The position numbers and the translations under genes were made by a program. Below the pieces are notes generated by a model. It did not search any database. It saw only the letters and a program-made list of their open reading frames with translations, and was not told the origin of the DNA. DNA of 60,413 bases from Candidatus Bipolaricaulota bacterium (lineage in GTDB: Bacteria; Bipolaricaulota; Bipolaricaulia; Bipolaricaulales; Bipolaricaulaceae), in assembly GCA_938084715.1 (NCBI GenBank), contig CALKES010000011.1:1-60413 (forward strand), in the 5' to 3' direction. Shown here piece after piece: positions 4,942 to 41,930 of the stretch. Numbering within the stretch: position 1 is the stretch's first letter; each line of letters opens with the position of its first letter.

Positions 4942-5249
4942 CTTCTTCCCCCGCGGATTCACTTCCTCGCCCCTCTGCATACGCACCCCCCTCCCTTCTG
5001 TGGGGGAGGGTTGGGGAGAGGGCAGGGTGACGGGGATCACCCTCCCTCACCCCCCTCCCATGGAGGGAGGGGGGATAAAAGCGGCTCCCATCAAGGGAGG
5101 GGAGATAGAGAGGCTCTTATTGAGGAGGGGGGTGCTGGAAGGATTCCATCGCGGGGGATCCCGTCGAGGGAGGGGGGTAACAACAACGTGGGGGTAAGGG
5201 TTCGCCCTCCCTCCACCAGCCCCCGCTCGCCATCTCCAACCAGGAAGGC
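4942..5249. other. Gene-free stretch of C/G-run repeats
   Basis: No convincing reading frame. It holds a palindromic C-run/G-run element near 4985-5028, a short tandem array at 5055-5177 (separate entry), and then the start-proximal promoter of the TlpA-like gene. Confidence 0.6.
5055..5177. repeat. Degenerate 29-30-nt tandem repeat of short hairpins
   Basis: Units begin at 5055, 5085, 5114 and 5143, with a partial one near 5158. Each resembles CTCCCATNNAGGGAGGGG followed by GATA-like and A/G-rich bases, so each unit can fold as a CTCCC/GGGAG mini-hairpin. A similar pair of units lies near 11,210-11,260. The units abut without spacers, so this is not a CRISPR array. Confidence 0.6.
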
Positions 5250-11163: not shown

Positions 11164-11274
11164 CTCCCTCTTCCCTTGCGGAGCAGGTTGGGGAGAGGGA
11201 GCCCCTCTCCCCTCCCGTCGAGGGAGGGGGCAAGGAAACTCCCCATCGGGAAAGGGGCCGGGGGTGGATCCCGG

Positions 11275-32921: not shown

Positions 32922-33125
32922 TCAGCGGCGGTCTTCCTCCGCCGGGGCGGGGACCCCGAGGTCGCGGCAGATCTTGCGGGCAAGCCAGGGGCTGATCTCG
33001 CGGTGGCGGGGGACCGTGGAGGTCCGGAGCGACGCGGGGTTCAGGTACACCGAGTGCCCCTTCCCCTCGCGGAGGAGCCGGCAGCCGTGGGTTCTCAGGT
33101 GGGCGAGGAGCGCCCGACGGCGCAT
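32922..33125 (-). CDS. hicA: HicA-type mRNA interferase toxin
   Basis: 67 residues with the HicA pattern HGCRLLREGKGHSVYLNP and STVPRHREISPWLARKICRD. The catalytic His is His24 in GKGHSVY. It begins directly after the hicB stop codon (TAG-ATG, no gap). HicA cuts mRNA and is held by HicB. Confidence 0.93.
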   Translation of the reverse strand: MRRRALLAHLRTHGCRLLREGKGHSVYLNPASLRTSTVPRHREISPWLARKICRDLGVPAPAEEDRR

Positions 33126-33338
33126 CTACACCGCGAGTTCCTCGCGGACGACCTCTTCTCCGGCGGCTTCGGCCTGGGCCAGGGCGCGGTTGGCCTCCAG
33201 GATGAGGACCACCGCTTCCCTCAGGTTCTCCCGCGCCTCCTCCAGGGTGCGGCCCTGGGTGTTGGCCCCGGGGAGCTCCTCCACGTAACCCGTCCACCAC
33301 GGGCCGTCGCGCCGGAACACAGCGGTGTACTTCGTCAT
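33126..33338 (-). CDS. hicB: HicB-type antitoxin
   Basis: 70 residues, RNase-H-like HicB fold: YTAVFRRDGPWWTGYVEELP, GANTQGRTLEEARENLREAV. No C-terminal DNA-binding domain is present, so autoregulation would need another factor. Antitoxin-first order. A possible -10 (TATGCT) lies about 18 nt upstream of the ATG. Confidence 0.92.
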   Translation of the reverse strand: MTKYTAVFRRDGPWWTGYVEELPGANTQGRTLEEARENLREAVVLILEANRALAQAEAAGEEVVREELAV

Positions 33339-33548
33339 CGGACCACCCGCCCCGAGCATACCTGGCCGAGGGGACCCGGCAAGGGGACAAGGGAAAGGCC
33401 TCCCCCTCACTCCTGCCTTCCCCCACGGTGGGGGGAGGGTGCAGAGCGGTGGGGAGGGAGGGGCACGGCAGGGGAAACGCCCATCCCCTCCGTTCTTCTT
33501 CCCCTCGCCCTTCCCGGCCGGGACGGTGATGGGGATCACACCGGGGTC
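33339..33548. other. Gene-free stretch with C-run/G-run repeat
   Basis: Holds the hicB upstream region and a C-run/G-run palindrome near 33,405-33,450, ending at the strong promoter of the Cys-rich protein. No coding signal seen. Confidence 0.55.
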
Positions 33549-33577
33549 TTGACAGGGGACAGGGGTCTCGCTACCAT
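33549..33577 (+). promoter_or_regulatory. Strong consensus promoter of the Cys-rich outer-membrane protein
   Basis: TTGACA (33549-33554), exact 17-nt spacer, TACCAT (33572-33577). This is the only perfect TTGACA with ideal spacing that I noticed. It implies a leader of about 130 nt, unlike the leaderless genes nearby. Confidence 0.8.
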
Positions 33578-33644
33578 CGGCCCTGTATCCTGCAACGAGG
33601 GGAGGTGGTGGACCGAGCGAGGAGACCGTTGTGCTTGTGGGATT

Positions 33645-33658
33645 TTCGGGATCCCGAA
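33645..33658 (+). promoter_or_regulatory. Perfect 14-nt palindrome in the leader of the Cys-rich protein gene
   Basis: TTCGGGATCCCGAA, about 60 nt downstream of the predicted transcription start. It could be an operator or an mRNA stem that stabilises or regulates the leader. Confidence 0.4.
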
Positions 33659-33713
33659 GGTTGTTGAGGCAGTACAACCGGAATCTGAGTAAGGAACCAA
33701 GGAGGATGGAACG

Positions 33714-34856
33714 ATGAAGCGGGCTCTCGCGATTGCTGTTGCGCTTTGTACGATCGGCTTTGCGGGCTTCTCCCAGATCGCCATCAAGGGGAGCTGGACG
33801 GCTGAGGTGTGCCTCCTGCCGACGACGACCCTCACCAGCACCCTCAACCTGACCTACACGGTGGCGGGGTTTGACATCACGAGCATCACCGGCTTCGGGG
33901 TCGGGGGGATCACGAGCCAGAGGTTCACGTTCAAGGGCGTGTTCGGGCCGTTCTCCACGTCGGGGAACGTGTGGTTCCAGCCGTCCCCTGCGGCCTACCT
34001 CGCCGCGAACGCGGTGACGAGCTTTGACTTCGGCGGGATCGCCATCGGTGCCACGGTCTACCACTGGACGCCGGGGAACTACCGGTGGGGCACCGACCCC
34101 TGCAGCGCCCAGACCCCGCCGGGAGTGGGGTACCTCCAGTACATCTTCACCGGGACGATCTCCCCGGTCACGATCCGGGTTCGGTTCGCCGACTGCTGCA
34201 CCGGGACGGCGTTCCAGGACCTGCTGATCAGCCTGAGGGGGATCGACCTCTGCTGCGGGATCAAGTACAACGCCGAGGTTAACTTCACCAAGGCCGGGTT
34301 CGAGAACCTGACCCTCACCGGGATCAACGTCCCGCTCTGCTGCGGCGTCTCGTTCGACGTCTCGATCACGTACGGCGTCACTTACAAGAGCGTGACCGTC
34401 ACCCCGAAGTTCGCCGGGATCGTCGAGGGGTGCTTCACGGTGTGGGGCGGCCCGTTGACGGGGACGACGGGCAACATTTGGGAAGGGATCCGGGTTGACG
34501 GGTACGCCATCAGGTGCACGCTCGCCGACTGCAACTACTTCGAGTACTTCCACGCCTTCCGCCCGATCCAGACCACCATCCCGAGCGCGTACCGGGACAA
34601 GCTCCTCACGGCGTGCCAAGAGTACGAGTACGTTGAGCTGGGGTTCTGCGGCGCCGGCTGCTGCGGCGGCAAGTACACCGTCACGCTCCGGATCCTGTGG
34701 GGCGGCACGACCCCTGGCCTGTTCGGGATCACCCGGTTCGTCGGATCGGCGAAGGTCCCGGTCATGTCCAACTTCACCCTCAACCTCGACTTCGTGATGC
34801 CGGTCTCGGCCTGCGCCACGGCTAACTTCTGCTTCGGCTGGACGTTCTCGTTCTAG
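33714..34856 (+). CDS. Cysteine-rich outer-membrane beta-barrel-like protein
   Basis: 380 residues behind AAGGAGG. Signal peptide of about 20 residues (GFAGFSQ). The mature protein has alternating polar/hydrophobic strands, many Thr/Gly/aromatic residues, and ends in Phe (FGWTFSF), the usual barrel signal. It has 17 Cys, several paired: ADCCTG, LCCGIK, LCCGVS, FCGAGCCGG. Charged residues are few. The consensus promoter, strong ribosome binding site and long terminator suggest an abundant envelope protein, perhaps a disulfide-stabilised porin. I know no named family; similar Cys-rich barrels would be expected in relatives. Confidence 0.75.
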   Translation: MKRALAIAVALCTIGFAGFSQIAIKGSWTAEVCLLPTTTLTSTLNLTYTVAGFDITSITGFGVGGITSQRFTFKGVFGPFSTSGNVWFQPSPAAYLAANAVTSFDFGGIAIGATVYHWTPGNYRWGTDPCSAQTPPGVGYLQYIFTGTISPVTIRVRFADCCTGTAFQDLLISLRGIDLCCGIKYNAEVNFTKAGFENLTLTGINVPLCCGVSFDVSITYGVTYKSVTVTPKFAGIVEGCFTVWGGPLTGTTGNIWEGIRVDGYAIRCTLADCNYFEYFHAFRPIQTTIPSAYRDKLLTACQEYEYVELGFCGAGCCGGKYTVTLRILWGGTTPGLFGITRFVGSAKVPVMSNFTLNLDFVMPVSACATANFCFGWTFSF

Positions 34857-34876
34857 TCGAACTCTCAGGTCGTTCC

Positions 34877-34908
34877 GACGGGCCCCGGAACCCCGGGGCC
34901 CGTCTTTT
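34877..34908 (+). terminator. Strong rho-independent terminator of the Cys-rich protein gene
   Basis: A 12-bp perfect stem (GACGGGCCCCGG and complement), loop AACC, then TTTT, 20 nt after the stop codon. Confidence 0.9.
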
Positions 34909-34910
34909 CC

Positions 34911-34967
34911 CCCCCTCATCCCCACCTTCTCCCCCTGAGGGGGAGAAGGGTCTAGCGGATGAGGGGG
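34911..34967. repeat. Nested palindromic repeat flanked by a 13-nt direct repeat
   Basis: Outer arms CCCCCTCATCC (34911-34921) and GGATGAGGGGG (34957-34967) enclose inner arms CCTTCTCCCCC (34925-34935) and GGGGGAGAAGG (34939-34949) with a TGA loop. GGGGCCCGTCTTT occurs on both sides (34895-34907, inside the terminator, and 34964-34976). Confidence 0.75.
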
Positions 34968-35020
34968 CCCGTCTTTCCCGCGGGTGTACCCTGGGCCCAG
35001 CCCCGGCGGAGCACCGACCC

Positions 35021-35359
35021 GTGAGGCGCTCCCCGAGGGGACGGCCGGACCCACACGGCGATGGGAAGGCCGACGATTCGGACACGCTCTTCGCGGCCCG
35101 GTTCACCAAAGGAAATGGAGGTCCGGCCCGACAAGCCGGCCTCGATCCCCGGCTTCTGGACGTTCTGGCCCGCTGCGTGGCCCAAGCGTACCCCCGCGAG
35201 TTCGTCCCCAAGCTCTCGGACGACACGCTCGAGAGGGAGTACCAGGACGCCTTCGGAAAGCCGTTCTCCCCCGCCGACTGCCTGGGGATCGCCCTCCGGG
35301 TCCTCGGGAACGCCGGCCACGGGGACGCCCCGGGGGAGCTCCTCGCTGGGAGGGGGTGA
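35021..35359 (+). CDS. Small hypothetical protein, doubtful
   Basis: 112 residues with a GTG start. The first 40 residues are low-complexity, but about residues 42-105 look like real protein (DPRLLDVLARCVAQAYPREF, LSDDTLEREYQDAFGKPFSP). No family recognised and no good ribosome binding site. It could be the remnant of a longer gene. The following 230 nt to the subtilase stop codon show nothing I can support. Confidence 0.4.
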   Translation: MRRSPRGRPDPHGDGKADDSDTLFAARFTKGNGGPARQAGLDPRLLDVLARCVAQAYPREFVPKLSDDTLEREYQDAFGKPFSPADCLGIALRVLGNAGHGDAPGELLAGRG

Positions 35360-35589
35360 TCGTCGGCCTCGGGAGGGAGGGGACGGCGGGGTTTGGGTTC
35401 GCCGTTCCCGCGCCGACCACCGACACCGCGCAGCCCGCGGCCGCCGGCCGTCGTCCTCCCACCGTTCGTCCAGTTCCGGACGACCCGACCAGGTCCAGGA
35501 GGGGAGACAGGCTCCCCCGACCTCGCCGTGGTCCGGCTCGATGCCTCGCTCAGTCGTGACCCGCGGTCGAGAACTTCGGGGCCGCCTCC

Positions 35590-38500
35590 CTATGGCCCGC
35601 TGCCCTCCAAGGCCCCAATCGTCGTGGTCACGAAGTGGACCGACAGGGTTCCCTGGGCGATCCGGAAGTCGTGGACCGGAAGCACGGCCCCCATCGCCTC
35701 CTCGGGCTTGAGGAACAGCATCGGGTTGTAGGGCGGGGAGACCTTCTTGGAGCGGAGGAAGGCCATCGCCCGGGCGTCGGCCGCGGTCCGGGGCAGGGGA
35801 TCGCCGTCCCCATCGAGGTCGATGTACAGCTTGAGCTCGAGAATCCACCCGCCGTCGCTCAGCCCAAACTGGAGGTCCACCCATCCCGACTGAACCGTCC
35901 CCTCCCAGAGGAGGTTCCGGTTGTTGTTGGAGAGGACCGGGGCGGGCCCGGAGCTCGGCACCACCTCCACCGCCCGGAACTGACCGACGGTCCCAAGCTC
36001 GATTCGGAACGGCCGGGGCGCGGTCCAGGTGGCGCTGCCGGCGACCGTGACGTGCCACCGGTACTGGGGGTCGCCCCACACGTAGATCCCCGGGCGGTCG
36101 ATCGTCGGCATCCCGGGAAGGGTCGCCGGCGGGGGAGGCGGCGTCCCCACGGTGATCGTCCGGGTCGTCGTCCCCGTCGCGCCGACGTTGTCGGTCACGG
36201 TGAGGGTCACGGTGTAGACCCCGGCCGCGGCGTAGCTCTTCGTCACGCTCGGCGTGGCCACACTGGCGGTCGTCCCGTCCCCGAAGTTCCAGCTGTAGCT
36301 TGTAATCGTCCCATCGGGGTCGGAGGACCCGGCCGCGTTGAACGTGACGTTCTGCCCTGGATCGGGGTTCGCCGGACTGAACGTGAAGCTGGCCGTGGGC
36401 GGCTGGTTCGGCGTGCCCACGACCACGGTGCGCGTCGTGGTGGCCGTGGCCCCCCGGTTGTCGGTCACGGTGAGGGTCACGGTGTAGGTCCCGGGGGCGC
36501 TGTACCGCTTCTGGATCTGGGACCCGGTCCCGGTCGCCCCGTCCCCGAAGTTCCAGCTCCAGGCGACGACCACCCCGTCGGGGTCGCTTGAGCCCCGCCC
36601 GTCGAAGGTGATCCACTGGTTGGGGAGCGGGTTCGTCGGGGAGAAGGTGAAACTGGCCGTCGGCGGCTGGTTCGTCGGAAGGACGATCGTGAACGGGGCA
36701 CTGGCCTCGGCCCACGACCCAGAGGGGACGTTCGAGCCGAGCCACGCCCGGACCTGGGACAGGAAGGCGGCCCCGTTCGTGGCGAGAATCGGGTACCCCG
36801 CGGGGTAGCTCGTGGGGAAGTAGGGTACCGCCCGGTCCGCGGCGAAGGCGACGATCTGCTCGCTTCCCGCGGGCTCGGAGGCGATGTAGGCGTACGTTGT
36901 GGACCGCGGGAAGACGGTCGTCCCGGCCGGGACCTGGGGGTTTGTGTCCCGCCAGTTGGGGAAGACGAGGACCGCCCGCCCGGCGGCGTCGAGCTCCACG
37001 AGGTACACGTAGCTTGGCCGAGACAGGGTCACCGTGATCCGCACCGGCTCGCCCACGGTGTAGACGGACTTGTCGGTGGCCACGGCCAAGCCGAGCGGCG
37101 CCACGGCGCCGATCACCTGCACCTGGCGGGTGTTGTTCGCCTCGTTGCTCTCGGGCACTTGGTTGAACACGTCGGCCGTCGCCGTGAACGTCTCCGGCGA
37201 GGTCGACAGGGGCAGGGTGAACGTCCGGGTCACCGACGCCCCGGCCCCAAGGGAGCTCACGCTCCCATCCTGGGATGGGCCGACCCCCTGGAGCCGGACC
37301 ACGAACGCCCCGGCCGCGGCCGTCCCCTGGTTCCGGACCGTCACCTGGAACGTCACCGTCGAACCGATCGTCGGGTTTGTTGGGCTGTGCGTGATGTTTG
37401 TCACGACGAGGTCGGGCCGGGCAGCCGGCGCGGTGAGGGTGAGCTGGGCGGTGTTGTTCCCCTCGTCACTTTCGGCGACCTGCCCCAGGGCGTCGGCGGT
37501 GGCGGTGAAGGTTTGCGGGCTGGCGGAGGTGGTGAGGGCGATCGTCCGGGTGGCCGTGGCACCAGGGGCAAGGGAGCTCACCGAGGCGTCCTGAGACGCT
37601 CCGGCCCGGGAGACGCGGATCACAAACGCCCCGGCAGGGGCGGTCCCCTGGTTCCGGACGGTCACGGTGAAGGTTACAGTGTCCCCCACATTGGGGCTGG
37701 GGGGGCTCGCGGTGAAGGAGTCGACCACGAGGTCGGGCTGGAGGACGACGCCGGTCACGGTCACCTGAGCGGTGTTGTTCGTCTCGTTGCTCTCGGGCAC
37801 TTGGTTGAACACGTCGGCGGTGGCGGTGAAGGTCTCCGGACTGGTCGACAGGGGCAGGGTGAACGTCCGGGTCACCGACGCCCCGGCCCCAAGGGAGCTC
37901 ACGCTCCCATCCTGGGATGGGCCGACCCCCTGGAGCCGGACCACAAACGCCCCGGCCGCGGCCGTCCCCTGGTTCCGGACCGTCACCTGGAACGTGACGG
38001 TGGAGCCCACGGTCGGGTTCGTCGGGGAGTGGGTGATCGACTGGATCACGAGGTCGGCCTGCGCGGTCGGCTGGGGCGAGGCCTGAAGCCTTCCCGCCCC
38101 GAACGCGTACGGGTCCCCCATCGCCACGCAGAACGACAGGATCCGGCTCGTGAGGCTAGCCCGGTCGAGGCCTGGGTTCTCCGCCTTGAGGAGGGCGGCG
38201 ACCCCGGCCACGTGGGGGGCGGCGGCCGATGTGCCGGGGAACGGGTTGTAGAAGCTCACCCCGGTCGTCACGTTCGCCGGGGCGGCGAGGTCGGGCTTCT
38301 GGCGCCCGTCTCCGGTGGGCCCGCGGGAGGAGTAGGGGGCGATGGGGCCGGTGGCGTAGTTCGGCCAGTCGATCGCCCCCACGGTGAGGACCTCGGCGGC
38401 GTTCCCCGGGGCGGGGATGCTCGAGGCGGACACGACCGGGCTCACCTCTTGGAGAATCGAGAACAGGGACAGCCGCCGCGCCGCCCCGCTTGCCCTCTGG

Positions 38501-40092
38501 ATCCGCACCCGGTAGGTCCCGCTCGATGCGGCCGTGGTGGTGATCCGCTCCGTGGGCTGCTCGGTTCCGGCCTGGGTGGCCGTGGAGCTCGCCACGAGCG
38601 CCCCCGTGGGTCCGTACAGGTAGAGGTCGTAGTCGTCGGCGGTGGCCGGCCAGGAGTCCCACGTGAGGTAGAGGATGATCTGCTGGCCCGCGGTGGCGGT
38701 GAAGGTGACATCGGTGTCGTGCCAGCCGTCGGCGTTGGTATCGGTGAACGTCCCCCCGTAGTGCTTCTGGGCGGAGTTCCCCGCCGCCTGAACCCACAGG
38801 ATGCCGGCCGAGGTCGCCCTCCGGGCGATCGCGGCGATCGTCCCCGTCCCGTCGTAGAAGTTCGTGTTGAACCAGCCCAGGGAGTGGTTGATCACGTGCA
38901 CGCCCTCGGAGATGCAGTAGCTGACGGCGTTATCGAGGTCGACTTCGTTGGCGATCTTGATCAAGTAAAGCTGGGCGTCGGGGGCGACGTCGTGGACGAT
39001 CTGGGCCACGGCCGTCCCGTGGGAGATCCCGGTGGCGATCCCGGTCCCGGTGAAGTCGCGGGTGATCACGCTGGAGGGGAGGTCGCCCTGGGCCTGGGCG
39101 GTGGAGAGGCCGCCAAACCCAAGGTCAATGACCGCGATCTTCACGCCCGACCCGCGGTTCCCAACGGCGTGGAACGCCCCTGCGCCAACGAGGGCCATCC
39201 CCTCCGAGGTGACGGCCATCTCGTGGGGGGTGTAGGGGAGCCGTACGTAGACACCCGACCCCACCTGGGCGAGGAAGGTCTCCAGCTGGCTGAGTGGGAT
39301 TGTGACCTTGGACAGCCCGAGCGGGGACGGGGTGGTCTCCACGGCTACCCCGAGCGGAGCCACCCCGCCCTTCGATTCCACAACGAGGGTCACCTCCCCC
39401 CCGGCGGTGAGGGGGATCCCGAGCATCTCCGCCACCCTCGTCAGGGCATCCCGGGCCTGGGACGGAAGCCCGGCGAGGGCAGTGAGGGGACCCGTCGGAA
39501 CGACCTGCCGCACCGCCGCCAGCAGGGTCTCCAGCGCCCCGTCCACGTGGGGGTTCGACTTCGCCGTCTTGGTGATCGTGATCGCACCGATCGTCAACGG
39601 GACGCCCTTGGAGGTCGCCTGGGGGCCAACGGCCCGCCCCGCCCCGAGGTGGGTCAGGAACTGAACGGCCTGGGGGATCCGCGTCGAGCGGGCCGAGATC
39701 CCGGCGAAGGCGTCCGACCGCCAGGGGAGGACGACCCCGATCGTCCGCCCGCCGTGGGTGTGGAGCTGGAGCCCCGCCCCCAGGAGCTCGTGGGCGTAGG
39801 GGGAGAGGTCGGCGAACCGGGAGGCCACGGTCGGCGTCCAGCCGGTGAGGGCCTGGGCCACGTCGAACCGGACCGACCCGAGGCCGGCCAGGAGGTAGAC
39901 CTGGTTGTAGAGGGCCGCTTCGTTGTAGTCCTTGATCGTGGCGGAAAGCCCGGCCCCGCGCGCCTGGGACGCCACCGCGTCCCACGCCGCCCGGTCGGCG
40001 TCGAGGACGAGGACGTCGAGCTGGGCCAGCGCCCCAGCCCCCGCAAGGACCACTCCAACCAGAAGGCCAACTGCAGACACACGGATCTTCAT
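35590..40092 (-). CDS. Giant secreted subtilase with CARDB, DUF4384-like and PKD domains
   Basis: 1,500 residues. Signal peptide (1-24), a long propeptide region to about 295 (ending VRLPYTPHE), then an S8 domain with Asp323 (IAVIDLGFGG), His358 (GISHGTAVAQIV), Asn439 and Ser622 (PGTSAAAPHVAGVA), with a DYDLYL-type insert between His and Ser. Three CARDB repeats (QADLVIQSITHSPTNPTVG, QPDLVVDSFTASPPSPNVG, RPDLVVTNITHSPTNPTIG), a DUF4384-like domain (DKSVYTVGEPVRITVTL), two PKD domains (NQPPTASFTFSP, WNFGDG) and a novel tail follow. It lacks the C-terminal cassette of the other subtilase. ATG at 40092 is chosen for its signal peptide and the ribosome binding site AGGAG 10 nt upstream. Confidence 0.9.
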   Translation of the reverse strand: MKIRVSAVGLLVGVVLAGAGALAQLDVLVLDADRAAWDAVASQARGAGLSATIKDYNEAALYNQVYLLAGLGSVRFDVAQALTGWTPTVASRFADLSPYAHELLGAGLQLHTHGGRTIGVVLPWRSDAFAGISARSTRIPQAVQFLTHLGAGRAVGPQATSKGVPLTIGAITITKTAKSNPHVDGALETLLAAVRQVVPTGPLTALAGLPSQARDALTRVAEMLGIPLTAGGEVTLVVESKGGVAPLGVAVETTPSPLGLSKVTIPLSQLETFLAQVGSGVYVRLPYTPHEMAVTSEGMALVGAGAFHAVGNRGSGVKIAVIDLGFGGLSTAQAQGDLPSSVITRDFTGTGIATGISHGTAVAQIVHDVAPDAQLYLIKIANEVDLDNAVSYCISEGVHVINHSLGWFNTNFYDGTGTIAAIARRATSAGILWVQAAGNSAQKHYGGTFTDTNADGWHDTDVTFTATAGQQIILYLTWDSWPATADDYDLYLYGPTGALVASSTATQAGTEQPTERITTTAASSGTYRVRIQRASGAARRLSLFSILQEVSPVVSASSIPAPGNAAEVLTVGAIDWPNYATGPIAPYSSRGPTGDGRQKPDLAAPANVTTGVSFYNPFPGTSAAAPHVAGVAALLKAENPGLDRASLTSRILSFCVAMGDPYAFGAGRLQASPQPTAQADLVIQSITHSPTNPTVGSTVTFQVTVRNQGTAAAGAFVVRLQGVGPSQDGSVSSLGAGASVTRTFTLPLSTSPETFTATADVFNQVPESNETNNTAQVTVTGVVLQPDLVVDSFTASPPSPNVGDTVTFTVTVRNQGTAPAGAFVIRVSRAGASQDASVSSLAPGATATRTIALTTSASPQTFTATADALGQVAESDEGNNTAQLTLTAPAARPDLVVTNITHSPTNPTIGSTVTFQVTVRNQGTAAAGAFVVRLQGVGPSQDGSVSSLGAGASVTRTFTLPLSTSPETFTATADVFNQVPESNEANNTRQVQVIGAVAPLGLAVATDKSVYTVGEPVRITVTLSRPSYVYLVELDAAGRAVLVFPNWRDTNPQVPAGTTVFPRSTTYAYIASEPAGSEQIVAFAADRAVPYFPTSYPAGYPILATNGAAFLSQVRAWLGSNVPSGSWAEASAPFTIVLPTNQPPTASFTFSPTNPLPNQWITFDGRGSSDPDGVVVAWSWNFGDGATGTGSQIQKRYSAPGTYTVTLTVTDNRGATATTTRTVVVGTPNQPPTASFTFSPANPDPGQNVTFNAAGSSDPDGTITSYSWNFGDGTTASVATPSVTKSYAAAGVYTVTLTVTDNVGATGTTTRTITVGTPPPPPATLPGMPTIDRPGIYVWGDPQYRWHVTVAGSATWTAPRPFRIELGTVGQFRAVEVVPSSGPAPVLSNNNRNLLWEGTVQSGWVDLQFGLSDGGWILELKLYIDLDGDGDPLPRTAADARAMAFLRSKKVSPPYNPMLFLKPEEAMGAVLPVHDFRIAQGTLSVHFVTTTIGALEGSGP
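37140..37353. repeat. DNA repeat inside the subtilase gene (copy 2 at 37782-37995)
   Basis: About 214 nt recur 642 nt downstream with only a few differences. They code for parts of CARDB repeats 3 and 1; repeat 2, lying between, is clearly more diverged. This pattern suggests duplication of a two-repeat block or gene conversion. Confidence 0.8.
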
Positions 40093-40097
40093 TGGGA

Positions 40098-40835
40098 TCA
40101 CGCTCCTGCGGGATGCGGGGTGTAGGGCGGCCGGACGTTCCGCACCGCCGGGTCCTGGCCGAGCCTTGGGAGAAGGGGGATCGGGATGAGGAGGTCGATC
40201 AGGGAGCCGGTGGAGCTGAGGACGTACGGCTCAAGGTCCTCCCCCAGGGCCCCCGATCCCTCGGCCACGACCCGCACCCGGAGCCCGACCCGCTCCAGGC
40301 CGTAGTCCCGCGCCGCCCCGAACCAGTCGGGGTGCCCCACCAGGGCCCACAGGGTCGGGTCGAGCCGGGTCCCCTCCGGGACGCGGGGGAGCTTGAGGGG
40401 GACCTCCCTCACCGTCAGGGTGACCGTGGTCCCCGGGGCGAGGAGCCCCAGGGCCCGGGCGAGGTCGAAGAACGCCTCGGAGGGCGGGACAAGGGCGTCC
40501 CGGGCCACGACGATCAGCTCCGCCTTCTCCGCGTTCCCCCGGAGCAGGGCGCCCTCGGCGGGCGTCTCCACCCCGAGGAGGAAGAACGGGGGGTCGAGGT
40601 AGAGGTAGGCCCCGCCCGCCCGGAGGTCGGCCTCGGACAGGCCCTCGGGGAAGACGAGGGCCCCGTCCTTCACTTGGGCCACGGGGAGGCCAAGCTCCCC
40701 CGCCTTCTCGGCCAGGGCGGCCACCGCCCGGGGGGGAGGCACCACCTCTGCCCACAGGTACTGGGGGCCCTGGGCCAAGGCCCCAAAGGCCACCGCCGCG
40801 ATCCCTACGCTCCACCACAACCGTCGGCTCGACAT
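40098..40835 (-). CDS. Secreted protein resembling a free-standing subtilase propeptide
   Basis: 245 residues behind AAGGGAGGAG. Signal peptide (about 1-22, AFGALAQ). The C-terminal 60 residues (VRVVAEGSGALG ... VRNVRPPYTPHPAGA) resemble the stretch that precedes the catalytic domain in both subtilases here (VRLPYTPHE and VRPPHRPAP), and the protein stops where a catalytic domain would begin. It lies 5 nt upstream of the giant subtilase on the same strand. It could be an inhibitor or folding helper acting in trans, or the surviving N-terminal part of a duplicated protease. Confidence 0.65.
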   Translation of the reverse strand: MSSRRLWWSVGIAAVAFGALAQGPQYLWAEVVPPPRAVAALAEKAGELGLPVAQVKDGALVFPEGLSEADLRAGGAYLYLDPPFFLLGVETPAEGALLRGNAEKAELIVVARDALVPPSEAFFDLARALGLLAPGTTVTLTVREVPLKLPRVPEGTRLDPTLWALVGHPDWFGAARDYGLERVGLRVRVVAEGSGALGEDLEPYVLSSTGSLIDLLIPIPLLPRLGQDPAVRNVRPPYTPHPAGA

Positions 40836-40925: not shown

Positions 40926-41930
40926 GTGGCCCTCGATCGGTTCGCCCGGCAGCGGGTCCTCCCCGAGCTTGGGGAGGGGGGCCAGCGCCGGCTCGGGGAG
41001 GCCACCGCCCTCGTCGTCGGCTGCGGGGCCCTGGGGACCCACGGGGCGGAGCTCCTCCTCCGGGCCGGGGTCGGGCGGCTCCTCCTCGTGGACCGGGACC
41101 TCGTCGAGGAGACGAACCTCCACCGGGTGGCCCTGTTCACCCCCGACGACCTGGGGAAGCCGAAGGCCCTCGCCGCGGCCGAAGCCCTCCGCCGGATCGC
41201 CCCCGACACCGAGGTCGTCCCCCGCGTCGCCCACCTCGGGCCGGAGCTCGCCCGGGAGCTCGTCGCCGACTCGGACGTCGTCCTCGACGGCCTGGATAAC
41301 CTCGAGACCCGGTACGTCGTGAACGACGCCTGCGTCGAACGGGGGATCCCGTGGGTCTACACCGCGGTCCTGGGGACGGGGGGGATGACGATGGCCATCC
41401 TCCCGGGGAAGGGGCCGTGCCTGCGCTGCCTGTTCCCCGACCCCCCGCCCCCGGGGGCGATCCCCACCTGCGCCGAGGCCGGGATCCTGGGCCCGGTCCC
41501 GGCCGCCCTCGCCGCCGTGGCCGCCGCCCAAGCGATCGCGGTTCTCGCCGGAAGCGCGGACCTCGTCCCGGGGCGGCTCCTCCTCCTCGACCTCTGGCGG
41601 GGGCGGGTGGAAGGAACAGACGTCGTCCGGGCCCCAGGCTGCCCCGCCTGCGGAAGGCGGCGGTTCGAGTTCCTCTCCCCCGGTCCGTCGGCGGCCGTCC
41701 TGTGCGGGGGGGGCGTCCAGGTCCTCCCCCGGACCCGGGGGACGGTGGACCTGGCGGACCTCCAGGGCCGGCTCGCCCCCCTGGGCCCGGCCCGGCTCGC
41801 CCAAGGGGTCCTCGTGGCCCAGATCGAGGGGGTCGAGCTCACGGTGTTCCCCGACGGCCGGGCTGTGGTGAAGGGGGTTTCCGACCCAGCCCGGGCCCAG
41901 GCCCTCTACGACCGGTACGTGGCTAGGTAG
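40926..41930 (+). CDS. ThiF/MoeB/HesA-family adenylyltransferase with extra C-terminal domain
   Basis: 334 residues. Start ALDRFARQRVLPELGEGGQR is the usual family N terminus. A Rossmann ATP site (VVGCGALGTHGAELLLRAGV), VDRDLVEETNLHR and GLDNLETRYVVND follow, and two CxxC pairs (CLRC, CPAC) bind zinc. The last about 80 residues (AVLCGGGVQVLPRTRGTVDL, ELTVFPDGRAVVKG) are an added domain also seen in some anaerobe homologues. It activates the C-terminal Gly of a ThiS/MoaD-like protein; none is seen nearby. It converges with the TPR gene with an 8-nt overlap. Confidence 0.88.
   Translation: MALDRFARQRVLPELGEGGQRRLGEATALVVGCGALGTHGAELLLRAGVGRLLLVDRDLVEETNLHRVALFTPDDLGKPKALAAAEALRRIAPDTEVVPRVAHLGPELARELVADSDVVLDGLDNLETRYVVNDACVERGIPWVYTAVLGTGGMTMAILPGKGPCLRCLFPDPPPPGAIPTCAEAGILGPVPAALAAVAAAQAIAVLAGSADLVPGRLLLLDLWRGRVEGTDVVRAPGCPACGRRRFEFLSPGPSAAVLCGGGVQVLPRTRGTVDLADLQGRLAPLGPARLAQGVLVAQIEGVELTVFPDGRAVVKGVSDPARAQALYDRYVAR

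Follow-up and report, generated by a model that had tools for sequence, protein, structure and literature searches.

A double-ended variant of the BoxC/PIT/TM intrastrand-triplex repeat behind a terminator-like hairpin of a Bipolaricaulota bacterium, with a local duplication

The nested palindrome found behind a terminator-like hairpin, between two convergent genes, at positions 34911-34967 of a 60,413-nucleotide stretch of Candidatus Bipolaricaulota DNA (hereafter the window) is a variant copy of an intrastrand-triplex repeat of a kind already described, BoxC/PIT/TM. The copy is double-ended, such that either strand can make the triplex motif, and in many genomes the third strand of such repeats matches the hairpin arm as its mirror image. 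Taken together, we consider it probable that an intrastrand-triplex repeat in double-ended form lies here behind a terminator and that the 13-nt duplication around it arose once, by slippage or template switching.

Read 5' to 3', the palindrome runs CCCCCTCATCC-CCA-CCTTCTCCCCC-TGA-GGGGGAGAAGG-GTCTAGC-GGATGAGGGGG. An earlier note on this DNA had described two tiers of 11-bp arms, which is correct for the outer arms (34911-34921 with 34957-34967), whereas the inner arms pair over 12 bp (34925-34936 with 34938-34949). The 13-nt direct repeat that the note had seen around the palindrome, GGGGCCCGTCTTT, is present and perfect (34895-34907 and 34964-34976), and on extension to 16-mers (34895-34910 and 34964-34979) the two copies agree at 15 of 16 positions; the second copy shares four nucleotides (34964-34967) with the right outer arm. 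The terminator-like hairpin is GACGGGCCCCGG-AACC-CCGGGGCCCGTC (34877-34904), followed by only TTTT, and with this tail it extends over 34877-34908. The features are as follows.

33714-34856, plus strand: upstream gene, open reading frame for a predicted protein of 380 aa, with matches in 29 of 40 related genomes
34877-34904, plus strand: terminator-like hairpin (12-bp stem, 4-nt loop, TTTT); a hairpin stands at the orthologous position
34895-34907, plus strand: direct repeat copy 1, comprising the terminator right half and the T tail
34911-34921, no strand assigned: left outer arm CCCCCTCATCC, its complement providing the third strand of the triplex motif on the minus strand (scan match)
34925-34935, no strand assigned: inner pyrimidine arm CCTTCTCCCCC (sequence and triplex scan)
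34939-34949, no strand assigned: inner purine arm GGGGGAGAAGG (sequence and triplex scan)
34957-34967, no strand assigned: right outer arm GGATGAGGGGG, providing the third strand of the triplex motif on the plus strand, with 11 of 11 allowed triads
34964-34976, plus strand: direct repeat copy 2, its GGGG doubling as the end of the right outer arm
35590-40101, minus strand: convergent downstream gene, 1503-aa open reading frame, conserved in the relative G011

The layout of the element comprises a pyrimidine arm, a purine arm and a third purine strand mirroring the purine arm. The right outer arm, when reversed, equals the inner purine arm with one A changed to T and yields eleven allowed purine-motif triads on the plus strand, while the minus strand carries the same motif with a second loop of 3 nt. 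A triplex-motif scan finds both focal strands, at most one match being returned in any of 20 order-1 Markov control runs, and elsewhere in the window it reports only one other place, at about 5073 on the minus strand, with one mismatch. The same succession of a pyrimidine arm, a purine arm and a purine third strand, separated by short loops, characterises the BoxC/PIT/TMECO repeats of E. coli, which also share the A-to-T change in the third strand and are always intergenic, at variable loci (Holder et al. 2015, PMC4666352). The focal arm type, CCTTCTCCC/GGGAGAAGG (termed R), differs from the E. coli type, CCCTCTCCC/GGGAGAGGG, by an extra A.T step, and has an additional triad type in the CCTTCTCCC arm of an 11-bp stem. 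The exact TMECO pattern, CCCTCNCCC N3-6 GGGNGAGGG N3 GGGNGAGGG, is accordingly not matched by the focal copy, so that the latter is a variant of the BoxC/PIT/TM kind and not a TMECO copy. Furthermore, one hairpin here serves third strands on both sides, whereas the inverted pairs described for E. coli consist of two separate hairpins (PMC4666352).

Repeats of this kind are dispersed. A pattern search admitting both R and the E. coli-like form (GGGAGAGGG ... GGTGAGGG; termed S) finds the motif in 10 of the 12 genus genomes, most copies being of the S form, with no match for the reversed pattern. In a second pattern search across the phylum it occurs in 43 of 100 genomes (709 matches summed), the reversed control giving none in any genome. 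Abundance is high in the relatives G004 and G007, and in the focal genome (G000) there are six matches at five places, of which only the focal place is of R type; the genome-wide search proposed in the note thus recovers the motif, but the focal outer arms only at the focal site. Within the window the inner palindrome has no second match at up to three mismatches, as in the shuffled controls, and the 13-nt word recurs only with two mismatches, at chance level (six in total against 4.6 expected). The claim of related C-run/G-run palindromes in at least five other gaps holds in part, such palindromes lying at four places (2151-2176, 5050-5074, 11190-11212 and 40958-41001). The first of these is a perfect 26-bp palindrome, CCCCTCTCCCCGG/CCGGGGAGAGGGG, just past an apparent gene end and devoid of a third strand, and at 5048-5180 several imperfect AGGGAGGGG-type units, perhaps a decayed array, lie behind a C/G-run palindrome. 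Most copies are single-ended, with no matching left outer arm; a scan of the window and 34 chosen loci yielded 18 double-ended copies, the focal one included, in which the outer arms match exactly over 9 bp or more to the left and to the right.

The repeats are also abundant in some genomes of the class, G059, G061, G063 and G034 having 61 to 141 matches each, far above the focal genome, and some of their S-hairpin copies bear a AGGGATGAGGG third strand. In G004 and G007, blocks that are 79-95% identical flank thoroughly rearranged, repeat-filled intergenic gaps. Two corresponding regions of these two species, L064 (G004:C1:12000-31999) and L068 (G007:C1:474000-493999), contain 22 and 19 hairpins, and their gaps are mosaics of focal-kind repeats and other palindromic repeat types. 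All four gaps compared between these genomes were rearranged, and none displayed a clean insertion.

How, then, is the element related to the terminator behind which it lies? The hairpin at 34877-34904 follows the stop codon in orthologues too, with a compensatory change of C-G to T-A in G011, and the convergent gene region is 84% identical to G011 at the DNA level over 619 bp. Its tail is only T4, and a strict terminator scan (at least five T in eight) does not call it. The 380-aa upstream protein matched no Pfam family. Between the element and the convergent gene, a small open reading frame at 35021-35359 aligns to G009 with 70.8% DNA identity over 342 columns and, although it has no Pfam match, may be a real gene, as judged from this alignment. 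Copies of the repeat lie near T4/A4 runs more often than control positions do, both in the genus set (12 of 99 copies against 4 of 265 controls, about 8-fold) and in a wider set (20 of 116 against 13 of 323, about 4-fold), which suggests an association with terminator tails but is not a proven target rule. This enrichment, together with the place of the element, close behind a terminator and with genes converging on it, and its very stable predicted fold (for RNA over 34870-34985, z -6.4, with none of 200 shuffles as stable; for DNA over the element, z -5.2), would suit a plain nested RNA hairpin or a second terminator element at the transcript end. We nevertheless regard that reading as unlikely. 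Single-ended copies lack the left-arm partner and yet have a third strand mirroring the hairpin arm; the only T-run after the palindrome is in the duplicated tail; and PIT elements, according to PMC4666352, had shown neither promoter nor terminator activity in earlier work. A search of Rfam over 33000-36500 gave no score near the gathering threshold.

Comparative evidence bearing on the triplex geometry comes from the covariation of the third strand with the arm type. The S arm is its own mirror image, and it is therefore the R type alone that separates a mirror from a direct order. Within the 100 genomes of the phylum, the R arm (GGGAGAAG) is accompanied by a GATGAGGG third strand in seven of seven matches (six loci, the focal locus being counted on both strands) and never by GGTGAGGG, while an S hairpin combined with an R third strand occurs in 19 matches, against about 700 others. 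An all-genome pattern scan, from which 38 of at least 80 loci were used, led to 37 genomes of other groups with 2809 matches. In terms of inner and outer arms these include 1365 R/R, 10 R/S and 15 S/R copies, the remaining 1419 being S/S or copies with unequal inner arms (nearly all S/S in the rows listed for part of the set). The presence of an R copy was the criterion by which these genomes were selected, and this inflates the R/R count but not the avoidance of mixed copies; in 30 of the 37, at least five R/R copies occur alongside at least five of the rest. Similarly, behind R hairpins in viral contigs, mirror third strands were found in at least 120 stretches and direct-repeat ones in two, the mirror pattern tolerating two ambiguous bases and the direct pattern one. 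For the length of the G-runs, the correlation between inner and outer arms is weak in the genus set (rho 0.36) and absent from the wider one (rho 0.07, p 0.45). Part of the arm-type match could also be explained by two old lineages copied whole.

The mirror rule speaks for a triplex rather than for an alternative hairpin or a quadruplex. A switch between G-quadruplex and hairpin might be considered, given the G-runs of the element and given that similar motifs of Methanomicrobiaceae, in which a G-rich repeat adjoins a C-rich tract, shift among quadruplex, hairpin and antiparallel triplex (PMC8044849). The archaeal motif, however, differs in order and sequence and has the quadruplex option by virtue of four G-runs, which are missing in the focal copy, where each strand has only three runs of at least three G. 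As the switch would in addition leave the matched extra A of the inner and outer arms unexplained, we hold it to be very improbable. In the open literature a limited search returned no report tying the R-type arm to intergenic palindromes, and the main text of PMC4666352 makes no mention of compensation, coevolution or covariation. Thus, while the repeat kind is already known, both its double-ended form and the mirror covariation may be new.

The flanking duplication is real but is not a feature of the repeat family. The note had proposed the footprint of a small mobile palindrome that duplicated its target, or else a duplication of the terminator around it. The first proposal amounts to a MITE-like palindrome inserted in the terminator tail, and the perfect 13-nt flanking repeat, the dispersal of copies, some of which abut T/A runs, and the absence of an element at this site in G011, the genome with the most similar upstream gene, count in its favour. 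Yet target-site duplication is not shared across copies, which is largely the outcome that the note had named as refuting its reading: when the repeat borders are fixed at the outer arms, direct repeats of more than 6 nt border only one of the 18 double-ended copies, the focal one (mispaired control, 6 of 306 at 8 nt or more). This stricter test was adopted because a looser one, allowing repeats within about 25 nt, was uninformative, the other copies showing repeats of as much as 14 nt where the sequence is G-rich, and mispaired flanks matching over equal lengths; the focal 13-mer is set apart by the non-repetitive CCCGTCTTT. G004 has at the same site a double-ended S-type copy directly after TTTT, with neither a second half-terminator nor a bordering repeat. 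Moreover, all 18 double-ended copies have GGGGG or a longer G-run at the end of the outer arm (one with an extra C inside the pairing), and the GGGG of the repeat therefore belongs to the arm of the element itself. With these 4 of 13 nucleotides intrinsic, the newly copied part is reduced to CCCGTCTTT, 9 nt, and a nearly matching C stretch.

Nor did the comparison of empty sites in relatives, as suggested in the note, demonstrate one, because the gap of the nearest relative, G011, fails to align. REP elements with RAYT transposases are likewise short intergenic palindromes in many copies. Unlike such systems, the focal genome has no match to a Y1 transposase (PF01797, the one family searched; assembly 96% complete). 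For these reasons we think an inserted mobile palindrome rather improbable, the dispersed nature of the repeat being the part of that proposal that survives. The duplication of the terminator comes closer, inasmuch as a copy of its right half, albeit a partial one, follows the element.

Slippage or template switching is more likely than mobile insertion as the source of the duplication, and the overlap of GGGG at the junction fits such an event at a stalled fork; we infer the copying mechanism from this one junction, which has no ancestral site beside it. On the account that we favour, that of a double-ended triplex repeat, the inner pyrimidine and purine arms would pair as a hairpin whenever a strand becomes single, be it behind a replication fork or a transcription bubble or within an extruded cruciform. 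The outer purine arm would then fold back antiparallel into the groove, forming G.GC, A.AT and T.AT triads. As outer arms flank the hairpin to the left and to the right, the triplex could form on either strand, and the whole element could also extrude as a long hairpin. The triplex fold could stall a polymerase, and at this structure slippage or template switching, primed by the GGGG common to the outer arm and the terminator stem, would once have produced the additional copy of CCCGTCTTT. Triplex formation in vitro and raised local instability have been described for the E. coli type, as well as, by earlier authors, polymerase blocking in vitro, and E. coli loci that carry such motifs are more changeable than control loci, with slippage being discussed (PMC4666352).

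For BoxC/PIT repeats in the cell, footprinting gave no support for a stable triplex, and in the presence of both strands CD/NMR indicated a duplex (PMC4666352). In this context the arm type is of importance. The E. coli-type arm is the same forwards and backwards, and its mirror third strand is therefore indistinguishable from a direct repeat, but the R-type arm lacks this symmetry, and its third strand takes the mirror order, which provides comparative evidence for triplex geometry. More tentatively, and we would put this as a possibility short of an expectation, the three-stranded fold may itself be selected across many bacterial phyla, such that the third strand takes up, in mirror order, any change in the hairpin arm, while double-ended copies, folding on either strand, may drive local duplication via fork stalling. 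The R-type arm offers a ready mutational test of triplex geometry.
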